IMG/VR virus record: IMGVR_UViG_3300042339_000237
Span: 1-29,243 of that record
DNA: 29,243 bases
Strand: one strand, 5' to 3'
DNA from: a virus
Shown: positions 8,041 through 26,120 of the stretch, piece after piece
How positions within the stretch are numbered: the stretch's first letter is position 1
Layout: each line of letters begins with the position of its first letter
The notes under the pieces: generated by a model
What the model was told of the DNA's origin: nothing
The model's database searches: none
Seen by the model: the letters and a program-made list of their open reading frames with translations, nothing else
Position numbers and translations under genes: made by a program

Positions 8041-8069
8041 ATGATAACACAAAAACTATTATGTGTCAA
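8041..8069 (-). promoter_or_regulatory. Sigma70-type promoter right before methylase start
   Basis: Minus strand has TTGACA (8064-8069), 17 bases, then TATCAT (8041-8046). A transcript starting about 7 bases after the -10 would begin at or next to the methylase ATG at 8034, implying a leaderless or nearly leaderless mRNA; no Shine-Dalgarno is visible. The -35 overlaps the stop codon of the upstream gene. Confidence 0.6.
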
Positions 8070-9565
8070 TATACAATCATAAATCCGGGTAAATTATTGC
8101 CCGGTTTGTGACTTGGTGCGTGATACTGGAACTTGAATTTCAATTCAGTAAACGGTTTCGCACTAGCAACAACTTGCCCACTATCTGTGATATCTAAACG
8201 ACCTAACCAAGCGGGACTTTGGTTAACAATATTGGTCATCATTTTTGCATATTCCTGTGCATCAGGACCACGCTCAACTGCATTAAGTGTACCGATACCC
8301 ATTACGTAAGTTAAGATATCTGTAGCGGCTTTTGCAGGATTAGCCCTGAAGCTAGGATATCCTGCTTCTTTTTCTGTGGGCTTTTCTTTACCCTTAGAAG
8401 TACCCATATAGTAATTACCATCTGCGGGTAATCCTACTGGCTTACCCCAATTACCCGCAATCATTGCCGGATAAAACATCTTTAAGAATGTATTATAACC
8501 TTGTTCATTTGGCATCTTAGCAAATTGCTGTTTGCTGAGTAGTGATTGTAATGAAGCGTAGTCTGTGAAATCTTCACCCAAAATACTTGAAATTTTAGCG
8601 TATTCTGGAACATTGATATGCTTAGAGCCAGCAATAATTTTATCTACATTTTTACCGCCTGCTTTAGGATGATAACTTTTGAATAATGAGAATAGTTTTT
8701 CTTGTGTCTTATCATTTTGAATAGTTCCCTCAAAGTTATCCATTAAGTTTTGGATACTTCTAAAGCTCGTACCACTACCTGTTAAACTCTTTACACTATA
8801 TTTAAGATCACCAACAAAAACATCAATCAATGGGAAGTTACCTTCTTTAGGGAACTCAATCTTATCATTCTTATTAGCTAATTTGATCGGAGCAAGAATC
8901 TCACCGAAGTCAACACTTAACTGGTCTCTTGCACGTTGACTTAAATTTTCATTAGTTTCAGGTGATAATGCTGGTTGTGCACCGGCTGCAACCTGGATTA
9001 ATTCTAAAAGAATTTGTTGTAATTCAGGACGTGATTTTGTCTTAGCAATTACTGCGGCTTGTGTATCTTTAATAAGTGAATTACGATTATATATTTGTCC
9101 AGCAAGACCCAGTGTAGTAGGAGTGAATTCTTTGATACTAACAGAAACACCTTTGCCATCATCATCTTTTTTACCCGATCCAGCAACAACCATAGAGTAG
9201 ATAGTATTACCTGCGTTATAGCTTAAGATATTACTTCTATACTTGCTACTAAGTCCAAACTGTTTTGGTTCTAGTGGTAAGTTGTCATAACCATATTGTT
9301 TTAAATAACTTGTGATTGTTTGTTTATCAGATCCAAATACTCGTATATAAGGTAAACCTGATTTAGTTTGTACCTCAAAGCGAACGTCCGGCATATCTTG
9401 TTCTAAGTTAGCAGCCAGTTGTTTAATCTGCGCCCGTGATGCAAATTGTGCATCTGGCTCTGGCTCAGGTGCAGTTTGTGTTTGCTGTGCAGGTTGCACT
9501 TGTTGTTCTGGAGCAGGCGTTGTTTTTTCCGTGTCCATACGATTTTTAATTTCATTGAATCTCAT
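8066..9565 (-). CDS. Phage protein with a capsid-targeting-like N-terminus and possible nuclease-like core
   Basis: 499 residues. Opens with MRFNEIKNRM, echoing MRFNEFISES of the plus-strand gene at 17605 and the capsid-targeting peptides of T4 internal proteins. Residues about 14-40 are a Pro/Gln/Glu-rich linker. In the middle, FGEILAPIK with Glu at about 222, then FPLIDVFVGDLKYSVKS with Asp at about 248 and Lys at about 259, fits an E...D...xxK layout of PD-(D/E)XK nucleases; similar segments occur in conserved hypothetical proteins of marine and freshwater T4-like phages. The remainder is unrecognised. It sits directly upstream of the DNA methylase, hence a restriction-modification-like pair or an internal protein is possible. 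Preceded by a late-type element at 9569-9579. Nuclease activity is inference. Confidence 0.75.
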   Translation of the reverse strand: MRFNEIKNRMDTEKTTPAPEQQVQPAQQTQTAPEPEPDAQFASRAQIKQLAANLEQDMPDVRFEVQTKSGLPYIRVFGSDKQTITSYLKQYGYDNLPLEPKQFGLSSKYRSNILSYNAGNTIYSMVVAGSGKKDDDGKGVSVSIKEFTPTTLGLAGQIYNRNSLIKDTQAAVIAKTKSRPELQQILLELIQVAAGAQPALSPETNENLSQRARDQLSVDFGEILAPIKLANKNDKIEFPKEGNFPLIDVFVGDLKYSVKSLTGSGTSFRSIQNLMDNFEGTIQNDKTQEKLFSLFKSYHPKAGGKNVDKIIAGSKHINVPEYAKISSILGEDFTDYASLQSLLSKQQFAKMPNEQGYNTFLKMFYPAMIAGNWGKPVGLPADGNYYMGTSKGKEKPTEKEAGYPSFRANPAKAATDILTYVMGIGTLNAVERGPDAQEYAKMMTNIVNQSPAWLGRLDITDSGQVVASAKPFTELKFKFQYHAPSHKPGNNLPGFMIVY

Positions 9566-11193: not shown

Positions 11194-11202
11194 ATAAATA
11201 CA
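11194..11202 (+). promoter_or_regulatory. Possible T4-late-like element before plus-strand gene
   Basis: Plus strand ATAAATACA, 5 bases before the ATG at 11207, part of TTGACATAAATACAT; similar to GATAAATACTT seen before minus-strand genes. TTGACA at 11189-11194 could also be a -35 box, but the fitting -10 (TATATA, 11211-11216) would lie after the start codon, so the late-type reading is preferred. Confidence 0.35.
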
Positions 11203-11206
11203 TATT

Positions 11207-11689
11207 ATGTTATATATATCTTATCAGGGCATTTACGATGGGCAAAACTATGAAGATGCCAATACTCCTGACCAAATAGGGAAATCCTTCAATAATGGAT
11301 TTGCTTGTATGGTTGATGTTTGGAGAATAGATAATACATTATGTGTAGGACCTGAAGAAAATCCAATAGAAGTTACTGACAAATATTTACAGGGGAATCG
11401 TTTTTGGATTAAATGCGGGAATCAGGAAACATATGATTGGTTTACTACACAACCAATAAGAAATTATCCTAACTATTTTTATCAACCTAATTCTAATGTA
11501 AATGCATTAACTAGTAGCAATAAGTTATGGACACCCGGCACAGTACCTGTTAATAATAATAGTATAGTTGTTCTACCTGAAATAAAAGATAGAGCATTGT
11601 TTAGTACTGTAAGATTAAGATGCTACGGAGTATGTAGCACCTACTTAACCTTCATTAAACGTATGCGTAATGAAGGTGAATGGTATTAA
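11207..11689 (+). CDS. GDPD-like phage protein, catalytic residues degenerate
   Basis: 160 residues, one of only two plus-strand genes. The first half fits the glycerophosphodiester phosphodiesterase pattern of phage proteins: a YQGIYDGQNYEDANTP opening where active enzymes have HRG...EN, then FACMVDVWRIDNTLCVG matching the 'vEiDVw..dg.~~lgHD' strand, and NSIVVLPE matching the last conserved strand 'NSI.VLPE'. The usual HRG and HD are replaced (YQG and GP), so it is probably a non-catalytic or altered member. Short for a full GDPD (usually 240+). Cysteine-rich tail. Ends 4 bases into the convergent small gene. Confidence 0.65.
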   Translation: MLYISYQGIYDGQNYEDANTPDQIGKSFNNGFACMVDVWRIDNTLCVGPEENPIEVTDKYLQGNRFWIKCGNQETYDWFTTQPIRNYPNYFYQPNSNVNALTSSNKLWTPGTVPVNNNSIVVLPEIKDRALFSTVRLRCYGVCSTYLTFIKRMRNEGEWY

Positions 11690-16092: not shown

Positions 16093-16514
16093 TAGCTTAC
16101 CTCTGTTCTACCGTTACCTAAATCTTTTGTACGAATAACTCTTGCATCACGATTCTCAGGATCTGCTACCTGTTGCTCATACATCTCTAATGCTACGTTC
16201 CGACATACTGTCTGAAACCACCTATCAACTATGATCACATCTGTATCATCTTCACGTTGCCTATAACCTGCTTTGATAAGATTCAATACAAATTTGTCAT
16301 TAAAATCTAAATCAAATGCACCATCATTGATATTCTCAGGATTGATTTCTACCTTAGTAATAGCAATATACGGTTCACCTGCCGCTGTTGCTTTTTCTTT
16401 TTCTGTGAGTTCAGTTTTAGTTTTGGCTTGTTTAGGAGTAGGCTTAGGAAGCTCTTTCCTAGCAATAGGCTTATCCTCTTGCTTTTTAAATAAGTTTTTT
16501 AGTTTTTCAAACAT
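16092..16514 (-). CDS. Phage protein with basic N-terminus, unknown function
   Basis: 140 residues. N-terminal 45 are Lys/Pro-rich (KQEDKPIARKELPKPTPKQAK) and disordered; the folded part PYIAITKVEINPENINDGAFDLDFNDKFVLNLIKAGYR then DTDVIIVDRWFQTVCRNVALEMYEQQ is conserved-looking in T4-like phages. Start overlaps the uvdE end by 16 bases. Possibly a scaffold or replication accessory; no motif decides. Confidence 0.7.
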   Translation of the reverse strand: MFEKLKNLFKKQEDKPIARKELPKPTPKQAKTKTELTEKEKATAAGEPYIAITKVEINPENINDGAFDLDFNDKFVLNLIKAGYRQREDDTDVIIVDRWFQTVCRNVALEMYEQQVADPENRDARVIRTKDLGNGRTEVS

Positions 16515-17524
16515 TTGTATCTTTCTAGTAATTTAAAGCTGGCAAGATTCTTTGCCTTCGATTCACACATCATATCAAAATTATCAATAAATGTCAATGC
16601 CCAATCATTCACCGCTTCGTTCCAATAGTAATCACTATGTGCCCGAAGTTTCTGTTTACTATATCCTGCTTCAATCAACGCATCATGGGCGGGACGTTCG
16701 TGTCGGGAGTGTTCAACAAGACAATCTTCACGGCTGACGGAGTAATGTAAAGTAGGCCTGACACCGCGCCAGCTATCCCTAACCATTTTAACCCGATCAT
16801 CAGTCGATTGAATATATTCTCCCGTTTTAATCCAATGATGGTGAATGTCCATGACCGTAGGGACGAGGTCAGATAACGATAAGCAGTCAAGTAATCCATG
16901 TGTGTATTCTTCATTTTCTAGTGTTAGTGTGTTTCGTGCCTCGGGGCTGAGTCTACCATAAACATCTCTGATACCCTGAGGACCTTTTCTACCAGAGATA
17001 TGTACATTGATTTTGATATCTTGAAATTGTTGACCATAACCCATCCAACGAGCCATGTCACAATGATATTCAAATTCTTCTATACTCTTATTTACTACTT
17101 CTTCACGGTCACTTGCTAAAACAACAAATTGGTCAGGGTGAAAACTTAGTCTAACATCATTTGCCCTAGCAGTTTCACCAATGGGTGCAAACCATCGTTG
17201 TAAACTATTTTGTACATCGGTTGATTGCCAAAATTCTTTGTATCCATCCATAGTATAAAAACTAAGCATATCGCTAGTAAGACGAACCATACGCAATTCG
17301 GGTTCTAATGTAGCTACACGCTTAACCAGTGCGTGAGTATTCATAATATTGCGTTTAGCAACATCCATAATCTTTTCTTCTACTACACTACGATTATTAC
17401 GCTTTGCCCAAGCTTGTGTAGTTCCACCCGTATTAAGACCTTCGGCTGAAACAATTTCACCTTTTTTGTTGATCTCTGCCCATTTACAAGCAAAGCCGAT
17501 GCGTTTGATATATTGATTTGTCAA
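16499..17524 (-). CDS. uvdE: UV DNA damage endonuclease (UvdE)
   Basis: 341 residues. Nicks DNA 5' of UV photoproducts and other lesions in an excision-repair bypass pathway. TIM-barrel metal site residues are visible: HPDQF in the middle, INVHISGRKG, LENEE, DIHHHWIKTG, and AHSDYYWNEA near the end; the N-terminus has RIGFACKWAE, the family opening. Length is normal for bacterial UvdE. In this phage it likely repairs UV-damaged genomes, as T4 endonuclease V does in other phages. Preceded by a sigma70-like promoter and divergent from the plus-strand gene at 17605. Confidence 0.96.
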   Translation of the reverse strand: MTNQYIKRIGFACKWAEINKKGEIVSAEGLNTGGTTQAWAKRNNRSVVEEKIMDVAKRNIMNTHALVKRVATLEPELRMVRLTSDMLSFYTMDGYKEFWQSTDVQNSLQRWFAPIGETARANDVRLSFHPDQFVVLASDREEVVNKSIEEFEYHCDMARWMGYGQQFQDIKINVHISGRKGPQGIRDVYGRLSPEARNTLTLENEEYTHGLLDCLSLSDLVPTVMDIHHHWIKTGEYIQSTDDRVKMVRDSWRGVRPTLHYSVSREDCLVEHSRHERPAHDALIEAGYSKQKLRAHSDYYWNEAVNDWALTFIDNFDMMCESKAKNLASFKLLERYKCLKN

Positions 17525-17540: not shown

Positions 17541-17551
17541 GATAAATAATA
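17541..17551 (+). promoter_or_regulatory. Possible T4-late-like element before plus-strand gene
   Basis: Plus strand GATAAATAATA, 53 bases before the ATG at 17605. It shares GATAAATA with the 11-base element on the minus strand. This fits a late promoter for the predicted packaged protein. Confidence 0.45.
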
Positions 17552-17557
17552 AGATAC

Positions 17558-17586
17558 AGTGTAACACGTTTACGCAATAAAGTCAA
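17558..17586 (-). promoter_or_regulatory. Sigma70-type promoter for uvdE
   Basis: Minus strand TTGACT (17581-17586), 17 bases, TACACT (17558-17563). About 35 bases before the uvdE start. Two hexamers with one and two mismatches, correct spacing. Confidence 0.6.
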
Positions 17587-17604: not shown

Positions 17605-18522
17605 ATGAGATTTAACGAATTTATATCAGAATCAGATAAAAAAACCATGAGCCGTGCAGCCAAAGGCAATGAAAAATACGGTAAAGATGGTATGAAAGCA
17701 TTAGCCAAAGCAGGCCGTGAAGGGGCCGGTGAAAAGAAACTTGACACCATTAGAGACAAATACGACAAGTATGATATTGATGAAGCCGCTAACCCAGCTC
17801 AACAGGCTGCTATAGCCATTTCTAAGAAAAAAGAGCAAGGAATAGATGAAGAAGAGGGTATGTTTGGTAGGTCAAAAAACGATAAACGTTATTTGGATAA
17901 ATTTGATCCAACTGAAGTTATGAATATCAGCGATGATCCCGGAATGAAGGCGCACAAGACAACAGGAAAGGGTTCATTAAGAACCTCTAAGGAAGATTTA
18001 GAGTTTGCATTTGGACCTCCCGGAGAAGATGATACATGGGTTTTGGAATTTAGTAATGGGTTAATTGCTACTATATACCCTCAATCTAATAGTGCTGGTA
18101 TGGATTGGATCATAGGTGGCAATCATCCAAACACAGAAGATTTTGTACATATGGCTTATTCAGCCGCACAAGATGAAGAACTTGAGGAAGACTGGCAAAA
18201 GACTAACAAGAAGGACAAAACTGACGGCATGAGCAGTAAAGCCGTTAAAGCATATCGTAGAGAGAATCCAGGATCAAAGTTAAAGACTGCTGTAACTACT
18301 AAACCTAGTAAGTTGAAAAAGGGTAGTAAGGCTGCTAACCGTCGCAAAAGTTTCTGTGCAAGAATGGGAGGAATGAAAAAGTCCCGAGCAAGTGCTAAGA
18401 CTAAAAGAGATCCAGATAGCCCAATCAATAAGGCACTACGTAGATGGAACTGCGAAAGTGTAGAGCAAATGCAAGAGTTAGTAATGATTGCTGAACAATT
18501 TGTACGTAAGGCTAAATCTTAA
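17605..18522 (+). CDS. Putative packaged (internal head) protein, DUF5872-like
   Basis: 305 residues, on the plus strand. Opens MRFNEFISES, very like the T4 capsid-targeting peptide MKTYQEFIAEA, and I-S-E followed by Ser matches the (L/I)-x-E prohead protease cut. Then a Lys/Gly/Ala-rich stretch (AAKGNEKYGKDGMKALAKAG), an acidic middle with LEFAFGPPGEDDTWVLEFSNG, and a basic C-terminus where RRKSFCARMGGM...ALRRWNC fits DUF5872, a phage domain with conserved Cys. Such a layout suits a DNA-binding protein packaged with the genome. Preceded by a late-type element. Packaging is inference from the N-terminus. Confidence 0.75.
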   Translation: MRFNEFISESDKKTMSRAAKGNEKYGKDGMKALAKAGREGAGEKKLDTIRDKYDKYDIDEAANPAQQAAIAISKKKEQGIDEEEGMFGRSKNDKRYLDKFDPTEVMNISDDPGMKAHKTTGKGSLRTSKEDLEFAFGPPGEDDTWVLEFSNGLIATIYPQSNSAGMDWIIGGNHPNTEDFVHMAYSAAQDEELEEDWQKTNKKDKTDGMSSKAVKAYRRENPGSKLKTAVTTKPSKLKKGSKAANRRKSFCARMGGMKKSRASAKTKRDPDSPINKALRRWNCESVEQMQELVMIAEQFVRKAKS

Positions 18523-21105: not shown

Positions 21106-21954
21106 TTACGTACCCCAGAGGTTCTTGAAAAGAGGTACTTGAAGTCTATCACTATAACGATAACCACGGTTCATTGCTTCAATCGCAACATTCTTAGCAT
21201 TCAAGTTATACAATGATTCTACGCCACCGCAGGGCATAAAGTATACCGGGCCTCTGAAGCCACCTGTACGAAACTCTTGTACAGCTTTATCTGCTTCTAA
21301 TGCATCCTCTTTAGTAGCGATAACAAACTTTAAATATACAAAGCCAATACTTTCATATTGACGAATGATACTAGGACAAATTGCTTCTTCCCACTTCTCA
21401 CCACTAATACTTAGTTTAGGACTAACACTAAATGTTAATGCATTCTTTTCTCTGTTAATCTTCCATTGCTGTAAATACATAGAGAGGTCTTGACTTAGTT
21501 CTTGTGTACCATTAGTTTCAAATGTAATCTCTTTGAGACTCCTCATCTTTTCGTTTGAAAGTAGTTCTGGATACGCTCTTTGCCATCCAAGAAGAGGTTC
21601 ACCACCAGTGATGACAAGGTGCTCATCCATCCAGCGATTGTGAGGAAGGATAGTAAGAATAGAGTCAACAATAGAAACGGTACTGAGCACAGGACTAAGA
21701 TGCTTGAACCTAGGGTCCCAAGATGCGTAACTATCACATCCCGTGCTGACAAGCGGTAAGGATTTATAATCTGTATAATCTTCTGCTTTAATTGCAATAA
21801 CATCTCTTTCACTACTTATTTCTCCTTTAGGCATTCCAAAGCCACCGCACGTAAAATTGCATCCATATGTTCTTAGGAACACGGAGGGGACACCCATATA
21901 TCTACCCTCACCTTGTATACTATAGAATAGTTCTGAAATTTTTATGTTACTCAT
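21106..21954 (-). CDS. queE: 7-carboxy-7-deazaguanine synthase (QueE), phage type
   Basis: 282 residues. Radical SAM enzyme that converts 6-carboxytetrahydropterin to 7-carboxy-7-deazaguanine, the second to last step to preQ0. N-terminus ISELFYSIQGEGRYMGVPSVFLRTYGCNFTC is the QueE opening; TGGEPLLGW, FETNGTQ and FVYLKFVI are the family motifs. The iron-sulfur cysteines are unusual: C32 and C36, then C73 in GCDSYASWD, i.e. CX3CX36C instead of CX3CX2C or CX14CX2C. Partner of folE and queD in this window; QueC not seen. Confidence 0.93.
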   Translation of the reverse strand: MSNIKISELFYSIQGEGRYMGVPSVFLRTYGCNFTCGGFGMPKGEISSERDVIAIKAEDYTDYKSLPLVSTGCDSYASWDPRFKHLSPVLSTVSIVDSILTILPHNRWMDEHLVITGGEPLLGWQRAYPELLSNEKMRSLKEITFETNGTQELSQDLSMYLQQWKINREKNALTFSVSPKLSISGEKWEEAICPSIIRQYESIGFVYLKFVIATKEDALEADKAVQEFRTGGFRGPVYFMPCGGVESLYNLNAKNVAIEAMNRGYRYSDRLQVPLFKNLWGT

Positions 21955-22149: not shown

Positions 22150-22565
22150 TAAGCCACCTCATCTTTATTGTTACTAGGATATTTTGAGCTAGTATATCTA
22201 ATAACTAATACGCTTATTGCTATAACAAAGGTAGAACCGGCTACCGCCAACATTTCAACAACATTGATTGGCTGATGACTCATTATATCTACCATATGTC
22301 GTGTTAGTGCTGTTATGGCAATGTATAGCAGGAACCTGACAGGCATATGATTGGTCTTGAAATAAATGCCTACCATTGCACCTATTTCCAAATAGATAAA
22401 CATTAATAATAAGTCACCGACTGTTGCGTGATGTTTTTGAAACAGTTCAGCAAAGGTCCAACCGGCTGCCCATACTGTTGCGGCACCAATAGCAAACAAT
22501 GCAAGTCTATGAAATATGTCTACTAAGGTATGTCCTACCTTATCTACTATTTCTGTTTTCAACAT
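22149..22565 (-). CDS. psiE: PsiE-family membrane protein
   Basis: 138 residues with about four transmembrane helices. 'FIYLEIGAMVGIYFKTNHMPVRFLLYIAITALTRHMVDI' is the family signature of phosphate-starvation-inducible PsiE. PsiE itself is poorly understood; phage copies may help during phosphate limitation, but this is inference. Starts at TAATG with the queD stop and is coupled to the small membrane protein downstream. Confidence 0.9.
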   Translation of the reverse strand: MLKTEIVDKVGHTLVDIFHRLALFAIGAATVWAAGWTFAELFQKHHATVGDLLLMFIYLEIGAMVGIYFKTNHMPVRFLLYIAITALTRHMVDIMSHQPINVVEMLAVAGSTFVIAISVLVIRYTSSKYPSNNKDEVA

Positions 22566-23047
22566 TATTCAAACTCTCTATCTTCTCTATGACCACCGCG
22601 ACCTGCCATATTACTATCAGTCTCACGGACCTCTACTCTACAGCACCATACACGCTTTGCTTCTTCACTACCGCAGTTAGGCAAAAAGATTGTGTTAATG
22701 TATTCATACAAGAAGTCAGCAATACCTTCACATCCAGTACGTTCTACTTCTGTAATCTTTGCTAGTTTCAAACGACCTAATTCTAACAAATGCTCACGCA
22801 TCGGGTCATCTTGTGCGACTAATAGAGTATGGTCAAACCATTCTTCTAGTTTATCTTTTAATGGTCGTAGTCCACCGAAGTCAGTTACCCAGTTACGGGC
22901 GTCTAATGTATCAGCTTCAAATTCAAAGTGAAAACTCATAGCATAGCCATGAATCAAATTACAATGACTGTCAGCACGCCATTGACGATATGCGACAGGA
23001 CCTATTTGTCTGTATGTCTTTGTTGAAAAGAATTTTTTGTTTGCCAT
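22565..23047 (-). CDS. queD: 6-carboxytetrahydropterin synthase (QueD), phage type
   Basis: 160 residues. Tunnel-fold enzyme that makes 6-carboxytetrahydropterin from dihydroneopterin triphosphate, the product of FolE. Family features: HCNLIHG at 28-34 with catalytic Cys 29, DFGGLRPLKDKLEEWFDHTLL at about 56-76 with H73, and an EVRETDSN C-terminal segment. Odd: the usual HGH zinc motif is HGY here (Tyr 35). Starts after an extended -10 and AGGAGAAC. Next genes on the same transcript are psiE, a membrane protein and queE. Confidence 0.9.
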   Translation of the reverse strand: MANKKFFSTKTYRQIGPVAYRQWRADSHCNLIHGYAMSFHFEFEADTLDARNWVTDFGGLRPLKDKLEEWFDHTLLVAQDDPMREHLLELGRLKLAKITEVERTGCEGIADFLYEYINTIFLPNCGSEEAKRVWCCRVEVRETDSNMAGRGGHREDREFE

Positions 23048-25317: not shown

Positions 25318-25440
25318 TTAATCCTTACAAGTACAGTTACGGCCTTGATTGCAGTCTCCGGTGCATCCAGTAGCCGGCATTGTTGAAACTAATACAACAA
25401 TGCCCACAACTACTACTAATGAAACTAGTAAAATAATCAT
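25318..25440 (-). CDS. 40-aa membrane or lipoprotein-like peptide
   Basis: ATG at 25440 overlaps the folE stop by ATGA; stop at 25318-25320. Hydrophobic N-terminus ([18 protein letters not shown]) then [19 protein letters not shown], a Cys-rich tail with the '[12 protein letters not shown]' pattern found in tiny bacterial and phage peptides, often predicted as lipoproteins. Here the lipobox is weak, so a simple membrane peptide is equally possible. Confidence 0.68.
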
Positions 25441-26120
25441 TTGCAACCTTTGTTAGCAATTTGTAAGAACTCTTGTCTCGCCGCTGGATCAGATTTGAAA
25501 CCACCGCCTAAACGACAAGTAACAGTACTTGAACCTGTATCTTCTACACCGCGTGATTTAACACAATAGTGTTGTGCATCAATCATAACTGCAACATCTT
25601 CTGTATCAAGGATGAACTGTAAGGTGTGGAAAATTTGCTCTGTTAACCTCTCTTGGATTTGAGGCCTTTTGCTAAAATATTCTACTATACGGTTGATCTT
25701 ACTAAGCCCAAGAACTTTTTGTTTAGGGACATAAGCTACAGTAGCTAATCCATCAATAACTACAAAATGATGTTCGCAGTTAGATTGAACATTAACATTA
25801 CGCTCTACAACCATTTCGTTGTATTGCATCTTGTTGTTAACTGTTGTACATTTAGGGAATGCTTCGTAATCAAGACCCCAAAATATTTCATTGACATACA
25901 TCTTGGCAACACGTTTAGGTGTTTCAATCAAACTGTCATCAGACAAATCTAATCCAAGTGTTTTCATAATCTCGGCAAATAACGGTTCAATAACCGCAAT
26001 CTTATCTTTACGATCCGGAACTAATGACTTAATTGTAGGAGTCTCGACACCCATTTTAACTAAGTGTTCGTGTACTTGTAGACCCAATATTGGATCTGTT
26101 TTTGTTTTATTATAACTCAT
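25437..26120 (-). CDS. folE: GTP cyclohydrolase I (FolE)
   Basis: 227 residues, usual length. Converts GTP to dihydroneopterin triphosphate, the precursor for QueD and for folate. Zinc ligands C115, H118 (CEHHF) and C186 (HYCVKSRG) are present, with [10 protein letters not shown], the family's N-terminal motif, and [21 protein letters not shown], the allosteric/active-site helix. Provides the first step of 7-deazaguanine synthesis in this phage, together with queD and queE 2.4-5 kb downstream. An inverted repeat and a late-type element lie in the upstream gap. Confidence 0.97.

Follow-up and report, generated by a model that had tools for sequence, protein, structure and literature searches.

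The closest known counterparts of the protein described here are the internal proteins IPI, IPII and IPIII and the Alt protein of bacteriophage T4. In this phage, short N-terminal leaders direct the packaging of the proteins which carry them and are then removed by gp21 (PMC9026906). The capsid-targeting sequence of IPIII comprises 10 residues, of which those at positions 4 and 7 matter for targeting and those at positions 8 and 10 for cutting (PMC9026906). The T4 internal proteins and Alt are injected (PMC9026906, PMC12373910), the three internal proteins acting as inhibitors of type IV restriction enzymes of the host, and the leader has served to identify internal proteins in T-even phages (PMC12373910).

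The locus described here lies within a viral record of 29,243 bases, in the following called the window. Most of its genes match, in the same order, the uncultivated phage contigs G001 (348,701 bases) and G002 (352,012 bases). A prohead protease of the T4 gp21 type (PF03420) is encoded by both contigs as well as by two more large relatives, and all four also possess a Gp23-type major capsid protein. The protease belongs to family Peptidase_S77; Peptidase_S78, which was considered in its place, yielded no match. The head region of three of these relatives follows the T4 order 20-67-68-21-22-23, with 67, 68 and 22 assigned from position and length. Since the collinear relatives encode protease, capsid protein and head gene order of the T4 type, we assign the window, judging from its gene content, to a T4-like jumbo phage with a genome of about 350 kb. 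The fragment of 29 kb excludes this phage's own head genes, and the facts on protease and capsid come from the relatives. The host appears to be a freshwater bacterium. Scans of the whole window for tRNAs and RNA families gave no matches. As an observation apart, genes resembling QueE, QueD and FolE are found on the minus strand (21106-21954, 22565-23047 and 25437-26120); by resemblance they suggest a 7-deazaguanine pathway, possibly serving DNA modification.

The open reading frame at 17605-18522 (+), whose start reads MRFNEFISESDKK, was confirmed; the ORF list and homology agree with the original prediction in that it is one of only two plus-strand genes. Its product of 305 residues is a mosaic and is predicted to be a capsid-targeted modular precursor. 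A putative capsid-targeting leader of nine residues, MRFNEFISE (17605-17631, +), ends at a predicted cut ISE9|S. It is followed by a helical SRAAKG/KYGKDGMKALAKAGR module (residues 10-60; 17632-17784, +) reaching up to a predicted cut IDE60|A, by a segment consisting of a AANPAQQAAIAI helix, a disordered stretch and a small alpha/beta module (residues 61-195; 17785-18189, +) up to a predicted cut LEE195|D, and by a strongly basic DUF6321 module (residues 196-305; 18190-18519, +; PF19846, E 5e-11). With 43.4 bits against a curated cut-off of 28.5, membership of the latter family is met. The C-terminus had been expected to be DUF5872-like, for which no match was obtained, neither with the whole protein at E values up to 1 nor with three segments at E values up to 10. 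Also, everything behind the leader had been taken to be basic. This holds for the DUF6321 part, whereas the middle of the protein is acidic. As 31 Lys or Arg residues occur among residues 192-305, the strong positive charge of DUF6321 suggests contact with DNA. Within this module Cys251 and Cys283 are invariant in the alignment. Domain searches recognised no enzyme domain in the protein, and the multi-domain criterion for polyvalent proteins is not met. The AlphaFold model has a low overall confidence (mean pLDDT 61) and contains confident helices at residues 17-53; residues 1-10, 57-62, 76-126 and 188-207 are modelled with low confidence, and all three predicted cuts fall inside these stretches. 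A fold search with this model led to no meaningful match (best E about 0.1, probability 0.28), and our literature search found no paper in which DUF6321 is named.

Upstream of the gene an exact match to the late-promoter-like element GATAAATA is located at 17541-17548 (+). The motif GATAAATAAT, about 57 nt upstream of the reading frame, closely resembles the core of the T4 late promoter and is conserved in 14/14 of the upstream regions aligned from relatives, so that the late-type element which had been noticed before proves to be real. The adjacent divergent gene encodes a UvdE-type UV endonuclease (16499-17524, -; PF03851, E 1.6e-35) and is a syntenic neighbour in relatives as well; its sigma70-like promoter TTGACT-17 nt-TACACT (17558-17586, -), read from the sequence, is conserved in most of the aligned relatives. 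Late elements are enriched at genes bearing the leader (8/16 as against about 13% for genes overall, p 3e-4). We read the gene as one that would be expressed late, in the absence of expression data. Across the window ATAAATA is observed 7 times, with 15.3 occurrences expected from shuffling, and several of these sites precede genes, as if selection acted against spurious late promoters. In the only other plus-strand gene (11194-11689, +) ATAAATA stands just 6 nt before the ATG, making a nearly leaderless late mRNA possible. An orphan gene for a protein of 499 residues (8066-9565, -) is likewise preceded by ATAAATA, here stopping 6 nt short of the ATG, and its mRNA would be nearly leaderless if this element were used.

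The start of the protein, MRFNEFISES, had been held to resemble the T4 internal-protein peptide, and this resemblance withstands scrutiny. According to the T4 record, IPII and IPIII start with MKTYQEFIAEA and IPI with MKTFKEF; the common pattern is M-[KR]-...-E-F-I-x-E, the version of the window being one residue shorter. With MRFNEFISE|S it fulfils what is required of such a leader, namely about 10 residues ending in [IL]-x-E and followed by a small residue. In the window and four relatives the strict motif is present at 17 of 1,484 gene starts compared to 1 of 6,555 internal methionines (p = 5e-12), while shuffled N-termini produce a mean of 0.11. The sole internal case directly precedes DUF6321 in a fused relative and itself fits a cut site. 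A DNA pattern for MRAxEFIxE retrieved at least 120 viral contigs versus 1 for a codon-permuted control; the residue profile of tagged starts is skewed towards MRAxEFI because sequences were gathered by this very pattern. Among complete DUF6321 reading frames of viral contigs, the strict pattern stands at the start of 43 of 51, and near variants occur in several of the remaining 8. Judged on these grounds, the match to T4 is far beyond chance. Nucleotide alignment reveals that the amino acids of the leader are kept while its codons vary, so the constraint acts on the protein, and conservation of the gene start at the DNA level is ruled out. The orphan gene at 8066-9565 likewise starts with MRFNEI; it was left out of the count of tagged genes since it lacks an I-x-E site and, identical contigs apart, is without relatives.

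The leader is common to otherwise unrelated proteins. It occurs on about 23 sequence clusters of a first contig set, mostly without DUF6321, and on 33 clusters of a second set found by the DNA pattern; the two sets overlap partly and were not merged. Among the tagged proteins are one with an ADP-ribosyltransferase exoenzyme domain (ADPrib_exo_Tox, E 9.5e-13), a kinase with similarity to T7 0.7 and, weakly, to the kinases of polyvalent proteins, GNAT acetyltransferases, a GH19 chitinase, an amidoligase and, by a weak match, a RegB-like RNase. Some tagged relatives contain a Kinase-PolyVal-like domain scoring below Pfam's cut-off. A protein of contig G003 with a 10-residue leader of the T4 type, MKTFKDYLTES, matches the PHROG ‘internal head protein’ with a modest E of 4e-4, and its homologue in Pseudomonas phage PA5oct is annotated as structural by ESI-MS/MS. 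The gp67-like protein of PA5oct, whose gene adjoins that of the portal, starts with MKINDIITE|G and is ESI-MS/MS-positive as well; going by the residues alone, a core protein of a known type here bears the freshwater leader. Over the PA5oct proteome the strict leader is present on only 2 of 93 MS-positive proteins (p 0.04), which points in the right direction with small numbers. Our reading of these occurrences is that the leader would serve as a general address label put on many unrelated proteins.

Several tagged genes deserve mention in their own right. The largest cluster accounts for 64 of 137 tagged proteins (for example L281:5639-6061, +), and its longest-listed member has no Pfam or PHROG match. 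At L322:5135-7242 (-) tagged genes of the ADP-ribosyltransferase and the kinase type are adjacent and resemble a host-takeover pair. Tagged GH19 chitinase-like proteins (L036:12873-13514 and L047:7015-8589) show a weakly Tat-signal-like stretch, SRRGFLGG, which in the former directly follows the leader, where a leader cut would expose it as if for export after injection. A syntenic relative of the window gene (L095:1485-2807, corresponding to G001:261485-262807) possesses a middle of another kind, weakly RegB-like, together with a second leader-like sequence, MKIEELITE|G, directly before DUF6321, resembling a fusion of two tagged genes.

For the I-x-E cut site, a fit to a gp21-like protease had been claimed. 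In four relatives and PA5oct the capsid propeptides end with LAE|S, LAE|S, LSE|S, LKE|N and LVE|N at a common position of the alignment, from which the mature ends are inferred, and further [ILM]xE sites precede these ends. ISE|S matches this L-x-E|S/N pattern, and in the collinear G001 and G002 the gp21-type (S77) protease is found along with the matching capsid cut site. Two further cut-like sites, IDE60 and LEE195, had been missed, and the pattern thus appears three times in the protein, after residues 9, 60 and 195, each time at a module border. The SRAAKG/KYGKDGMKALAKAGR, AANPAQQAAIAI and DUF6321 modules are also met in other phage proteins, arranged in different orders, and their junctions follow the pattern [ILVM]-x-E|[ADSG]. 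At DUF6321 junctions a script counted 41 of 46 distinct contexts with Glu in P1 and a hydrophobic P3; the remaining five, offset as the search pattern had taken the Glu into the module, were read by eye, resulting in 46/46. A cut-like site is present at 17 of 19 AANPAQQ junctions, and it lies no more than 8 residues (in practice 2 to 7) upstream of SRAAKG modules in 45 of 50 distinct contexts, compared to a control value of 11.8% for positions throughout these proteins. The pattern [ILVMF]xE|x is short, with about 6 occurrences per 1,000 residues when all proteins are considered. The p-values of the junctions are overstated since related sequences are not independent. P2 and P1' are variable and P3 and P1 fixed, as is expected of a protease site. 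In the open-access literature we found no paper on module-wise cutting of such proteins.

Virion evidence exists for homologues of the DUF6321 module. The DUF6321 protein gp137 of cyanophage S-CREM2 (108049-109521) was identified in the virion proteome by 4 unique peptides (PMC10665884). For cyanophage S-SCSM1 a virion proteome determined by mass spectrometry is available (PMC9602691), and its DUF6321 protein S-SCSM1_29 is annotated ‘virion protein’, its own peptides having been left unchecked by us. The N-terminal leader is absent from both proteins. As these homologues lack it, the cyanophage data back DUF6321 as a virion module more than they back the leader. The genes of both phages lie inside the head/neck cluster, and the proteins may be associated with the neck or with packaging.

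Packaging in the head and cutting by a gp21-like enzyme, as envisaged by the original prediction, agree with all of these indirect tests, i.e. the leader, the protease and capsid sites, the late element and the mass spectrometry of homologues. We consider it probable, at roughly 0.7, that the gene encodes a late head-targeted precursor which is cut by gp21 at the leader and probably at two inner sites, packaged and likely ejected. The late gene would give rise to an internal-head precursor of the T4-like jumbo phage, MRFNEFISE being the capsid-targeting sequence by which the protein is brought into the core of the prohead; this nine-residue label appears to be what targets it to the head. The gp21-type protease would then cut after ISE9 and probably also after IDE60 and LEE195, setting free three pieces: the short helical module, the one in the middle and the strongly basic DUF6321. 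These would remain with the DNA inside the head, and their ejection into the host is likely. For the protein of the window itself packaging, cutting and injection are all inferred, there being no virion data for this phage.

The extent of cutting is where this reading is most open to challenge. The protein might be targeted to the head and lose its leader only, with the [ILVM]xE sites at the borders left uncut, and thus be packaged as one multidomain protein like the T4 internal proteins or Alt. The T4 internal proteins indeed lose just their short leader (PMC9026906), the interior sites could reflect linker composition, and the middle and DUF6321 modules are also joined in several relatives. 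Set against this are the junction counts of 46/46 and 45/50 together with fixed P3 and P1 next to varying P2 and P1', as well as the precedent of T4 gp22 and gp67, which are known to be chopped by gp21 into short fragments. We regard restriction of the cutting to the leader as unlikely, if the least so of the alternatives.

Slightly more doubtful is the notion that DUF6321 proteins serve the neck, terminase or head as structural or packaging components without being injected, the leader merely incorporating them into the head. It draws on the cyanophages, where the protein is present in virions and its gene stands between gp15 and gp16 or beside terL. In the jumbo phages, however, the gene adjoins UvdE far from the head genes, and the middle of the protein is freely swapped between relatives, unlike what a structural part would tolerate. 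A third view, in which the N-terminal pattern is unrelated to the head and represents an inherited start region or a signal for translation or folding on ordinary late cytoplasmic proteins, can be upheld insofar as direct virion evidence is missing for tagged proteins of these particular phages. Yet the pattern is conserved at the protein level on dozens of unrelated families, matches the capsid propeptide sites and is carried by the gp67-like core protein of PA5oct seen by mass spectrometry, which renders this last explanation improbable. The preferred reading remains the packaged precursor cut at the leader and probably within.

A wider proposal, whose chances of being right or wrong we see as evenly balanced, is that aquatic T4-like phages, jumbo phages included, produce capsid-targeted polyproteins of swappable modules behind a nine-residue tag which the prohead protease cuts in the head. 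If it is true, several separate peptides and effectors are packaged along with the genome from a single gene, and tag and junction pattern together amount to a catalogue of injected phage proteins obtainable from sequence. Cut sites at module borders would also explain the changing order of DUF6321 and similar small basic modules in T4-like phages. If the nine-residue leader is read as in the T-even phages, a hundred or more tagged genes become testable candidates for host takeover or anti-defence, sitting in environmental phages for which most genes lack annotation.

The system is a variant of the T4 internal-protein system and not a new kind of system. It shares with IPI, IPII, IPIII and Alt a short N-terminal leader ending with [IL]-x-E, a putative late gene, the presence of the leader on unrelated proteins and a gp21-type protease, here in the relatives; as with Alt, an ADP-ribosyltransferase belongs to the repertoire. 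In contrast to the T4 internal proteins, the leader has 9 instead of 10 residues (M-R-[AIF]-x-E-[FI]-[IL]-x-E) and occurs on far more families, and the precursor consists of swappable modules strung together, with additional cut-like sites. T4 gp22 and gp67, whose short gp21-generated peptides partly stay in the head, resemble it in having several [ILV]xE sites per protein, and here, too, peptides would be expected in the mature head; the gp67-like protein of PA5oct even shares the start, MKINDIITE|G. The pieces of the protein described here, however, are shuffled recurring modules behind a distinct leader and not scaffold. Like the polyvalent proteins of phages and conjugative elements (PMC5512222), the protein is made of several modules and expected to enter the cell with DNA; unlike them, it is without a recognised enzyme domain, and its modules are small and split by sites resembling those of a prohead protease. 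Cyanophage S-CREM2 gp137, S-SCSM1_29 and PSSM2_123 of P-SSM2 possess the same C-terminal domain as the protein of the window and similar small Cys/Lys-rich modules, in their case preceded by [VFIM]xE|[GDS], but differ from it in lacking the leader and in being encoded in the head/neck cluster.
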